A program made the translations under genes and the position numbers. Under the pieces are notes generated by a model. That model was not told the DNA's origin, did no database searches, and saw only the letters and a program-made list of their open reading frames with translations. From positions 5,677,501-5,741,500 of the forward strand of contig CM067526.1 of assembly GCA_034509925.1 (NCBI GenBank): a DNA stretch of 64,000 nucleotides, in the 5' to 3' direction. The stretch comes from Hirudinaria manillensis. Its lineage: Eukaryota; Annelida; Clitellata; Hirudinida; Hirudinidae. Positions within the stretch are counted from its first letter, which is position 1. Each line of letters begins with the position of its first letter. Shown in pieces: positions 42,914-59,551 of this stretch.

Positions 42914-43062
42914 TTAAAGAAAATGTCCACAAAAATTCTTAAAAACAACATTCGTGTCAACGTATTTCATCGACAGAAAATCCATGTCACGTGGCACTAA
43001 ATCTGAGACCTCATTTGCATATTCATCAGATAACTTGGGAGGAGGAGTTGAAAGCTTAACTG
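42914..43062 (-). other. Three-copy dispersed element, copy A (open reading frame on minus)
   Basis: The core at 42931-43050 on the minus strand matches copies at 54433 and 58757. It carries ATGCAAAT (octamer) and CACGTG. On the minus strand the frame KLSDEYANEVSDLVPRDM continues to a stop at 42914, so it could be a terminal exon or a repeat with a chance frame. Not recognised. Confidence 0.6.
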
Positions 43063-43289
43063 ATTTTTTATGTTAATTGTGCGTTATATTCACAACAATA
43101 TGATAATGAGTTCAATATAAGATTCACGCGTTACTACTGTGCCAGTAATAATTTAATTGGTATTATAATTTACAAATTATGAAACATTTAAAATATTTTA
43201 TAAATATTGAATATATTGTTGAATAAAAGTATTTTATTCAATTATTTAATATTATGTTTCAATTACTTTTAATAATCATGATATTAAAC

Positions 43290-43506
43290 TCTTTAGCAAC
43301 AAATCAATTAACTCTTTAATATTCCAATTAACACACGATGATGTAAACCAAGAATACTTCTTGAGTCCACAAACATCTGCCGAGTGACAGCAAATTGGTT
43401 CAAAGGATTTGAAGTTCAAACTTTGAACTCCCGCCATGAAATAAGAATGGTCTCCGAAATCCATCTTCCTGAATTGATACGTGATCAGGGGACCTTGAAT
43501 ATGACC
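43290..43506 (-). other. Candidate exon, unassigned
   Basis: After a plausible acceptor (GTCATGACAG, exon from 43506) the minus strand reads GHIQGPLITYQFRKMDFG then FEPICCHSADVCGLKK. Composition looks coding, but neither family nor downstream splice partner is known. Confidence 0.25.
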
Positions 43507-43884
43507 CTGTCATGACATGTTGTGCCAAAGAAACGAATTTCATTAAAATAAAATATATTTGAATAAAGATATTTCTGAATAAAAATGAATTTCACGAACA
43601 ACTCTCTTGAATCTGTGATCCTACCAAATCGCTGACAATGAATTACGAATGAATTACCAACCGATGTCGTGAGTGAAAATGAGGAATTGCAATGGTTTAA
43701 GTTTATTGAAAGTTTACGTTCACCACGTGCAGGTTAATGAATAATTCATATTAAATATTAAAATGTTATTAATTAATGCACGATGTTCAAATGATAAGGA
43801 AGTGACATTTGACACTTGCTTGTCACTAATTGTGATAATCACTTTTCCTTTGTTTGGTAGGTCTCCCCTCCACTACGATCATCA

Positions 43885-44025
43885 ATCAATCATTCATTCA
43901 TTCATTCATTCATTCATTCATCCATTCATCCATCCATCCATCCATCCATCCATCCATCCATCCATTCATCTATTCATTTATTCACTCGTTCATTCATTCG
44001 CTCATCAATTCACTTATTCTTTCGT
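43885..44025. repeat. (CATT)n/(CATC)n microsatellite
   Basis: CATTCATTCATT changing into CATCCATCC and back to degenerate CATTCAC units. The Ile-His-Ser/Pro frames here are artefacts. Confidence 0.9.
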
Positions 44026-55643: not shown

Positions 55644-55899
55644 TTCCACTGCCTTTGAGTCACATCCGTCTCGCGGATGGGTTTCCAATTGAATTTGCGT
55701 TTTGGGAGCATTTCCATGGAATAAAAATATTTTGAACATTATTCTATAATATTTAAAAATATTTTTAAAATCATTTGCCATAATTTCATAACTTTACAAT
55801 AATTTAATCATCACGGTTGTTTCAGTTGTAATCATTACAGGTATATTATGATTATAATTTTTACTTTTTTCTGCAAAATCTGATCTTCAAGATTACATA

Positions 55900-56355
55900 T
55901 ATATAGATAGATTTATTATTATTATTATTTGTTTATTCACAATCACGACCTCCGCCGGATTATTATTATTATTATTATTATTATTATTATTATTACACAT
56001 CATAAAGATTTATATTGCACGTAAATAATGTTGTTATCATGAGCCGAACGTTGAGATGGCTGTTCATGGCATCAGTTCTGATGATAAAAATGTCGGCACC
56101 TTTTTCCTTGCTCTTATCACTATTATCATCACCGCCGTCATTCTCGAAACCATTACCATCACCAAGACTTCCGGTGTGACTATTATCATCGCCACCACCA
56201 TCATCATCATCATCATCATCATTATCATCATCATCAACCGTCACGGACTTGAAGTTATTCCATGGATTCATCCCACAGCGGATAGTCTCATTTCAACCTT
56301 TCTTTTAAAATCATCATCGTCGTCGTCATCATCGTCCTCATCATCATCATCATAG
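55900..56355. repeat. (TTA)n and (CAT)n trinucleotide runs
   Basis: TTA units at about 55915-55930 and 55960-55996; CAT/CGT units at about 56195-56240 and 56310-56354. They lie 200-600 bp upstream of the GPCR start codon. Confidence 0.85.
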
Positions 56356-56575
56356 AAAGATATCAAATCTAACATTATATTTGAAGAGCAGACAAATACC
56401 ATGTCTAAATAGTATGTTTACAATCACATTGTATTTTCCAAAAATGTAAATTTTATCAAAAATAGAAATTATTTAGTAATTAAATATTATTTAATTTTTT
56501 TATTGCACTAATATCAAATAAATACGTTTTAATGCTTTCTAATAAAAGAAATAAACAAAACCTTTCCAGTGAACA

Positions 56576-59551
56576 ATGACGTCACTCTTCGGGCATCCAA
56601 TCACACCGTGGGACGTGGTCTCATCCCTGCTCTACCTGGCTATCTGTGTGGTCGGGTTGCTAGGCAACCTGCTGGCCATCTACGTCATCGTCAAGTGGGT
56701 GGAGCCAATTAATTTATGCGACCCTAATTAATTTATTCATTCATTTCAAATCAGAGGCAAAAAACATTTTTATCCAATTTTCTTGATCTTTTATCCAATT
56801 TAAGTGCAAATTGTTCGTAAAAAAGATTTTAATTGGATTTAAATTTAAAAAGTATTTAAGAGATTTCTTCGTGAATACCAATAAAGGAATAAAACGAAGG
56901 TATCAGAGGTCATGAGATTTTATTGGCCAAATGAATGTTTTCAATGAATTCAGTGCCTCGTGAACTTCAATTAAGATTTTCCCTTCAGAAACGAATCCGT
57001 TGTTAAAGTAAAACCATTGAAAAGTGCTTTCAAGACTTTTGGATTTCCAATCTAAAACTTTCCAAAATGGCTTCCTTCCTTGAAATAAGTTCCTTCATGG
57101 AGTGATTTCTTCTTGAAATGGAATCCACAGCTTGTCAAGTCCCCCAAATGACGTCAGTCCATCCATGACTTTACTTTCACTTTGCAACTTATCAGCTGTT
57201 GTTGACGTGAAGGATGATAAAAGTCACTGAAGTTTCGGATTGAACTTAGTCAACATTTGCAAGATTAGGATGTTAATACCATGTTATAGTATATTATATG
57301 ACATTATATTTTATTTATACCACGTGACATTAAATTTATTTATATTATGGAAAAGCAAATTAATGTTTTGACTTTTGCTTTATTTAAATTGCTAATTAAT
57401 AAATAATTATATCATCATCGTCCTCGTCGTCGTCATCGTCATCATGTCTTAACAAGAGGCCAATCATTTGCAACGCAGTGCTTTTATGAGACATTTTACA
57501 AATGGATGACCAAGGCGTGGCTGGCATTTTCCACCTGAAAACCTTTTGGAAACTGACTTTCAAAGCTTCGAAAAGCTAGTGGGAAAATGTCACTCGGAGG
57601 CACGTTGTTCTGGAAAAAAATGAAGGAGGAAAAGCAAAAAATAGAAGCAAACGTTTACTCGAGAACAACATTTTGCTTGTTTATTCCTTCGTCAAACAAT
57701 AAACGCACATTGCTTGTTGAGTTGAAATGAAGAATATTATTAATAGTTGAATCCATGATTGATTGATTGATTGATTGATTGATTGATTGATTGATTGATT
57801 GATTGATTGATTGATTGATTGATTGATTGATTGATTGATTGATTGATTGATTGATTGATTGATTGATTGATTGATTGATTGATTGATTGATTGATTGATA
57901 TAATATTATATAATGTTTATATTTTATTTATTTATTGATTTATTTATTTATTTATTTATTTATTTATTTATTGATTTATTTATTTATTTATTTATTTATT
58001 TATTTATTTATTTATTTATTTATTTATTTATTTATTTATTTATTTATTTATTTATTTATTTATTTATTTATTTATTTATTTATTTATTTATTTATTTATT
58101 TATTTATTTATTTATTTATTTATTTATTTATTTATTTATTTATTTATTTATTTATTTATTTATTTATTTATTTATTTATTTATTTATTTATTTATTTATT
58201 TATTTATTTATTTATTTATTTATTTATTTATTTATTTATTTATTTATTTATTTATTTATTTATTTATTTATTTATTTATTTATTTATTTATTTATTTATT
58301 TATTTATTTATTTATTTATTTATTTATTTATTTATTTATTTATTTATTTATTTATTTATTTATCTCAAGTCAACAAGGTTATTGTTCAGAAGATATTAAA
58401 AGTATTTAAATTTTAATTACTAATTCTTCAAACATTCAAATGGATTATTGAGTATTCTCTACGAAAGATTACACGATTAGTTGTTGTGAATTCAACGATT
58501 CTCTCCCCACTCATCGTTCATTTATTCATCCGTCCGTCCGTCCGTCCACGCGATGGTTACGTTACAGAGACCGATGTTAAAAGCAGCAGTCTTTACGTGT
58601 CGTGTTCGAAACCCAGGTTCTACCACTGATTAGCGCCCAGGGAGCAAACGTTAATGTGAATGGTCTTGATATAGCGCTATATAAGCATACATTTTTTATT
58701 ATAATTTAATATTTTCGTTAATTATAATATTATTATAAATTAATAATAATTCATCCATTCATCCCCAAATTATTTGATAAATATGCAAATGAGGTGTCTC
58801 AGATTTAGTGGCACGTGACATGGATTTTCTGTCGATGAAATACGTTGACATAAATGTTATTTTTTAACATTTTTTTTTCAAAATTAAAAAAAAATCTTTT
58901 GTTTGAAACCATGAAAATTCAGACAATTTAAACTTTAATAAACGTCAAATAATTCGTACATGAACAGCACAAGCCATTGATATTCATTATCATCGTCATC
59001 ATCATCGTCATCGTCATCATCATCGTCATCGTCATCGTCATCATCATCATCATCATCATCATCATCGTCATCGTCATCGTCATCATCATCATCATCATCA
59101 TCATCATCATCATCATCATCATCATCATCATCATCATCATCATCATCATCATCATCATCATCATCATCATCATCATCATCATCATCATCATCATCATCAT
59201 CATCATCATCATCATCATCATCATCATCATCATCATCATCATCATCATCATCATCATCATCATCATCATCATCATCATCATCATCGTCATCGTCATCGTC
59301 ATCGTCATCGTCATCGTCATCGTCATCGTCATCGTCATCGTCATCGTCATCGTCATCATCATCATCATCATCCAGGTACACCAGGATGAAAACAGTGACA
59401 AACCAATACATCCTCAACCTGAGCATTTCAGACGCCATCTTCCTTCTCGACCTTCCACTCATCATCGTGGGTGGTCTCCTCAAAAGATGGATTTTTGGTG
59501 TCGTCATGTGCAAGGTGTACTTTGCCACCACAGGCATCAACATGTTCACAG
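56576..59551 (+). CDS. Somatostatin/opioid/allatostatin-C-type GPCR, first two coding exons only
   Basis: Exon 1 56576-56694 and exon 2 59376-59551 join in phase to 98 codons. The first Met follows an in-frame TGA. TM1 carries the class A GN motif ([14 protein letters not shown], Asn31 = N1.50). TM2 has [19 protein letters not shown] with Asp59 = D2.50. Then come the ECL1 Trp (KRWIFG), the TM3 cysteine (VVMCKVYF) and [19 protein letters not shown] and the TTGINMFT end are characteristic of the somatostatin/opioid/galanin/AstC receptor group. Exon 2 stops after GINMFT, so the exon with DRY, TM4-TM7 and the tail must lie further right; I found none up to 64000. The extracellular N-terminus is only about 12 residues with no glycosylation site. 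The ligand is probably an AstC/somatostatin-like peptide, signalling through Gi, by family. Confidence 0.85.
57755..57898. repeat. (TTGA)n microsatellite
   Basis: About 35 perfect units of TGAT. Confidence 0.98.
57925..58362. repeat. (TTTA)n microsatellite
   Basis: About 435 bp, roughly 109 units, with two TTGA interruptions near the left end. It yields long Leu-Phe-Ile-Tyr frames that are not genes. Confidence 0.98.
58545..58700 (+). mobile_element. Possible tRNA-derived SINE
   Basis: GTGTTCGAAACCC at about 58599-58611 resembles a Pol III B box. GATGGTTACGTTACAG, about 50 bp upstream, is a weak A-box match. The stretch ends in TATAGCGCTATATAAG, a tail type common in invertebrate SINEs. It is GC-richer than its surroundings. 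Boundaries are approximate. Confidence 0.4.
58757..58868 (+). repeat. Three-copy dispersed element, copy C
   Basis: A diverged copy with about six substitutions and a 2-bp insertion (GAGGTGTCTCAG) that breaks the shared reading frame. The octamer ATGCAAAT and CACGTG are both retained. Confidence 0.8.
58980..59373. repeat. (CAT)n/(CGT CAT)n microsatellite reaching a splice acceptor
   Basis: Some 390 bp of TCATCATCG units ending TCATCATCCAG|G at the start of GPCR exon 2. The array itself supplies the pyrimidine-containing tract and the AG. Confidence 0.97.

Follow-up and report, generated by a model that had tools for sequence, protein, structure and literature searches.

Results

A predicted receptor gene and three copies of a short element

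The window, which is the whole stretch of 64,000 nucleotides analyzed here, corresponds to positions 5,677,501 to 5,741,500 of contig C1 in a genome of 148.4 Mb and 23 contigs. It includes exons of a predicted receptor gene that is oriented on the plus strand and runs on beyond the window. The first recognized exon (56570..56694, plus strand) encodes the first transmembrane helix (TM1) with its GN motif. It is preceded by an acceptor-like tttccag ending at 56569, has an ATG at 56576, and is followed by a donor GT at 56695, these splice sites being predicted from the sequence. If this acceptor is used, another exon would be located further upstream. The predicted intron between TM1 and TM2 spans 56695..59375 (plus strand), with agreement of phase across the junction (AA + G, encoding Lys), and is followed by a predicted exon that extends from TM2 to the start of TM3 (59376..59551, plus strand). 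The next exon was read from the sequence beyond the window. When joined to this next exon, the TM2 exon matched the Pfam family 7tm_1 with an E value of 2.4e-26. Joining the TM1, TM2, and next exons by hand yielded somatostatin receptor 2 as the best PDB match (E 5.5e-38), and the best 60 of 795 PDB matches were somatostatin, opioid, and nociceptin receptors. On the basis of these predicted exons, the gene appears to encode a class A receptor like those of the somatostatin/opioid/allatostatin-C type.

Around this gene, we found three copies of an element of approximately 115 bp. Copy A (42931..43050) is on the minus strand, inverted relative to the other two, and lies 13.5 kb upstream of the TM1 exon. 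Copy B (54433..54555, plus strand) is approximately 2.0 kb upstream of the same exon, and copy C (58757..58874, plus strand), which carries a GT to GTGT insertion, is contained in the intron between TM1 and TM2. Several open frames on the minus strand, at approximately 39.7 to 41.0 kb, are located downstream of copy A. Pieces of these frames showed no Pfam match at an E value of 1 or less, the joined pieces showed none at 0.1 or less, and their best PDB match had an E value of 0.18. The receptor-gene setting of the copies was absent from an earlier sequence-only reading of this DNA, referred to here as the preliminary description.

Comparison of the window with itself by BLAST, performed after tandem-repeat masking, aligned A 42933-43050 with B 54434-54552 at 95.8% identity over 119 columns (E 5.8e-48), A 42931-43038 with C 58765-58874 at 89.1% over 110 columns (E 7.6e-34), and B 54447-54552 with C 58765-58872 at 88.0% over 108 columns (E 1.1e-31). 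Besides these element pairs, just two more, of 56 and 59 columns, were detected in the window at an E value of 0.01 or less. Counting each gap run as one, A and B show 5 differences in the 120-column block common to all copies, and C shows 17 relative to A and 17 relative to B. The core, represented by alignment columns 22 to 105, contains a single difference between A and B, whereas C departs from A by six substitutions and the insertion, which sits between an octamer and an E-box. Between pairs, the copies agree in their 3' limit within 2 bp and in their 5' limit within 12 to 13 bp. Neither self-BLAST nor a comparison of the flanks aligned the sequences surrounding the three copies. The element was thus confirmed as a real three-copy unit with similarity far beyond chance. 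In the preliminary description, the strands were right and the coordinates were off by a few bases at most, and its claims of roughly one core change between A and B, about six changes plus a 2-bp insertion in C, and nonmatching flanks were all borne out.

Three copies of the element were found in the genome

To determine copy number, the genome was searched with several queries, all of which pass over N stretches and very common words. Copy B (E value of 0.001 or less) and a longer piece of copy A (E value of 10 or less) each returned three first-look candidates, and in both cases these were the same three places alone. Allowing at most three mismatches, a 28-base pattern of the core gave three matches, A, B, and C, and the two peptides that can be read from the element matched the genome only at the three copies. 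All of the copies found in 148.4 Mb therefore lie within one 16-kb stretch of contig C1. A profile of the element, run over 314 kb at an E value of 10 or less, retrieved nothing beyond its three source copies. The exact core 25-mer had no matches in a viral and none in a prokaryote collection, a result of little weight for animal sequence. The TM2 exon of the receptor gene, in comparison, has 14 matching places in the genome at an E value of 0.01 or less, itself included, the next best being 44% identical, and the whole-genome element searches placed no copy near the other 13.

As a control, we used a 111-bp repeat from another region (C2:3,017,814), which was chosen for its local partner 5 kb away. 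This query yielded 1,232 first-look candidates, 40 of which were scored, with identities of at least 91%, demonstrating that dispersed repeats are detectable by this search. Since the genome-wide searches recovered three local copies alone, this is not a mobile repeat that has spread widely through the genome. The preliminary description had set dozens of copies, which would indicate a transposon, against two or three local ones, which would indicate local duplication; the count obtained points to local duplication, and the small transposable element that it had also considered is disfavored.

The rarity of such a family was evaluated by comparing a 114-kb neighborhood and one 200-kb control block each with itself, retaining matches of at least 100 bits; 11,500 and 17,500 of their bases, respectively, are N. 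In the neighborhood, the three element pairs were the only matches. The control block contained 289 pairs, 287 of which, as read from the list, are part of a satellite-like array within its first 16.7 kb. One of the remaining two is a pair of approximately 1 kb at 66% identity, and the other, a short pair, is the dispersed 111-bp repeat. In the 314 kb covered, with one control region, the element is the sole short family of at least 100 bits that is neither tandem nor dispersed.

Coding and structured RNA readings

The preliminary description had also considered a duplicated terminal exon with a frame shared by A and B. In the proposed forward frame, 9 of the 10 codons that vary among the copies change nonsynonymously, and copy C is disrupted by a frameshift and a stop. 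The reverse open frame behaves similarly, with nonsynonymous changes in 8 of 11 variable codons (these counts include edge codons and omit the two columns inserted in C). Neither element peptide matched a Pfam family at an E value of 1 or less. A protein-coding exon is consequently disfavored on either strand, and so is the terminal exon suggested earlier. The element is most likely noncoding.

Folding of the six strands was no better than that of shuffled sequences, with z scores from -0.49 to 0.88. A search of the whole window against Rfam at the gathering score gave no matches, and at a looser E value of 10 or less copy B gave four, the best with an E value of 4.9. With shuffle-like folding and no Rfam family, a structured RNA, snoRNA, or tRNA is unsupported.

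Distribution of differences along the element

Variable columns of the 120-column block are concentrated toward its ends (two runs, P = 0.00025 and 0.0001). The same lean was obtained in four trimmed blocks (P = 0.0067, 0.045, 0.005, and 0.024) and for the five differences of the A-B pair alone (P = 0.034); all of these tests are post hoc, their outcome varies with how the block is cut, and constraint is judged from three copies of the same genome. The longest fully invariant run, 25 columns, is not unusual (P = 0.15), whereas windows that admit up to one, two, or three variable columns are unusually long (P = 0.026, 0.0045, and 0.0005, respectively). The edge-leaning differences suggest that the core may be constrained.

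The octamer and E-box pair

As stated in the preliminary description, the octamer and CACGTG are kept in every copy (3/3) at a distance of about 25 bp. The gap from the end of the octamer to the start of the E-box is 19 bp in A and B and 21 bp in C, corresponding to 27 and 29 bp, respectively, from start to start. Since both motifs lie within the conserved core, their retention is not separate evidence. Genome-wide, ATGCAAAT followed by CACGTG within 18 to 34 bp occurs 47 times (20 forward, 27 reverse), three of these occurrences being the copies. The reversed pattern used as a control occurs six times, and a hand estimate from base composition, assuming 33 to 36% G+C, predicts about 16 to 19 pairs. 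Judged against these two values, the pair may be somewhat commoner than chance. It is not distinctive of these places, however, and the argument for POU and bHLH binding is weak.

Discussion

Taken together, the constrained-core hint and the placement of all copies found around one receptor gene are best explained by a cis-regulatory module. We hold with about even confidence that the element is a locally copied module of the receptor gene that it surrounds. Of the three readings in the preliminary description, the duplicated enhancer module is thus the one that still stands as a candidate. A discrete noncoding unit of approximately 115 bp would have been copied locally to an inverted position far upstream, to a position 2 kb upstream, and into the TM1-TM2 intron. 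The module would be enhancer-like, with several transcription factors binding to it, and its core would be kept by selection for protein binding, with the receptor gene as the probable regulatory target. Copies A and B could be recent duplicates or could have been homogenized by conversion. Several observations count against such a module. The longest fully invariant run is of ordinary length. The difference of approximately 4% between A and B, both of which are 17 differences away from C, fits a plain young duplication, and copy A could belong to the minus-strand open frames at 39.7 to 41.0 kb, which are also nearby. A more far-reaching proposal, which we consider improbable, is that a locally amplified family of 115-bp modules jointly controls one leech neuropeptide-receptor gene, with conversion or selection maintaining the near-identity of the distal, inverted copy.

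In being short, noncoding, and paralogous, in lying by one gene, and in having a core that is more alike than the flanks, the element resembles duplicated conserved noncoding elements (dCNEs) and shadow or redundant enhancers. Vertebrate dCNEs are mostly found beside paralogous genes after genome duplication. The leech copies differ from them in that they are all found around one gene, one of them inverted, and in that they are compared within one genome.

The main rival to the cis-regulatory module is neutral local duplication, which we regard as somewhat doubtful. It holds that a 115-bp piece with no function was copied twice nearby, by repair or template switching; an earlier event would have separated C from the ancestor of A and B, a recent one would have produced A and B, and one copy was inverted. 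This agrees with the local position of all three copies found, with the 5 differences between A and B against 17 for each relative to C, and with the ordinary length of the longest invariant run (P = 0.15). Moreover, constraint is judged here by comparing three copies of the same genome. On the other hand, both events would have had to reuse near-identical limits (within 2 bp at the 3' end and 12 to 13 bp at the 5' end), and the differences lie preferentially near the edges (P = 0.0001 to 0.045).

It is quite unlikely that the copies represent a small noncoding RNA gene present three times, such as a gene of Pol III or snoRNA-like type that ends at a 3' T run. The element is a discrete unit, with a T run just within its 3' limit (5 T in A, 5 in B, and 6 in C), and A and B contain the box-C-like word UGAUGA; its size and its small local family are further traits shared with box C/D snoRNA and other small RNA families. 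Nevertheless, T runs are frequent in such AT-rich DNA, the box-C-like word is altered in C, and inspection by eye revealed no matching box D. The empty Rfam result at the gathering score, the best E value of 4.9 for copy B, and folding on either strand that does not surpass shuffles also set the element apart from such families.

Each copy is oriented toward open frames of a downstream gene, which is the origin of another explanation, namely that the copies are alternative promoters or 5' noncoding exons, B and C of the receptor gene and A of a neighboring minus-strand gene. The acceptor-like site ahead of the TM1 exon hints at an upstream exon, and TATA-like words precede B by approximately 30 bp and C by approximately 70 bp. 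These distances are unequal, however, such words are frequent in AT-rich DNA, and none was seen ahead of A. No splice donor was recognized on inspection by eye, a transcript starting at C would give a receptor without TM1, and the minus-strand frames near A have no Pfam match and PDB matches with an E value of 0.18 or worse. We therefore consider this explanation very unlikely.

It is highly improbable that the copies are remnants of a short, very low-copy transposable element. The element does share its length, discrete ends, and unrelated flanks with a MITE, SINE, or solo transposon end, but the searches found only three copies, which together span less than 16 kb; inspection of their ends by eye showed neither terminal inverted repeats nor target-site duplications, and a true short repeat of this genome gives over a thousand candidates.

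The finding is a modest one. The element is real, local as far as found, and most likely noncoding, and its regulatory role is putative. Whether it is regulatory or neutral, neither a transposon nor an exon is now a likely reading. If it is neutral, it would represent an ordinary local duplication. If it is regulatory, one short module would have been copied repeatedly around one gene of the same genome, and copies of different ages would be directly comparable in the leech, a classical animal of neurobiology.

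Repeats and coding sequence in the window

The TM2 exon of the somatostatin/opioid-like receptor gene (window 59376-59551, plus strand) is flanked on both sides by long arrays of CAT and GGAT repeats, located at window 58984-59375 and 59552-59690, which abut its splice sites. Approximately 3.3 kb from copy B of the 115-bp noncoding element, a 19-bp tandem repeat of about 10 units (GTCAGTACTTATGTATCAT) occupies window 50940-51141.

Other coding sequence includes a cyclin exon on the plus strand (window 37664-37912; Pfam Cyclin_N, E = 3.9e-21). Downstream of the inverted element copy A, a set of minus-strand open frames (window 39752-41043) look like exons of a conserved gene; searches of Pfam and PDB yielded a usable match in neither.

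Repeats in the control region on contig C2

Comparison of the 200-kb control block from C2, another contig of the same genome, with itself revealed a satellite-like array at C2:3,000,001-3,016,744, in which the sequence repeats roughly every 777 bp. The control for the element copy-number search, a 111-bp dispersed repeat at C2:3,017,814-3,017,924, returned 1,232 preliminary candidate matches genome-wide. Close to one of its ends, CAGGGGTCCTCAAACTA appears to resemble the ends of hAT transposons.
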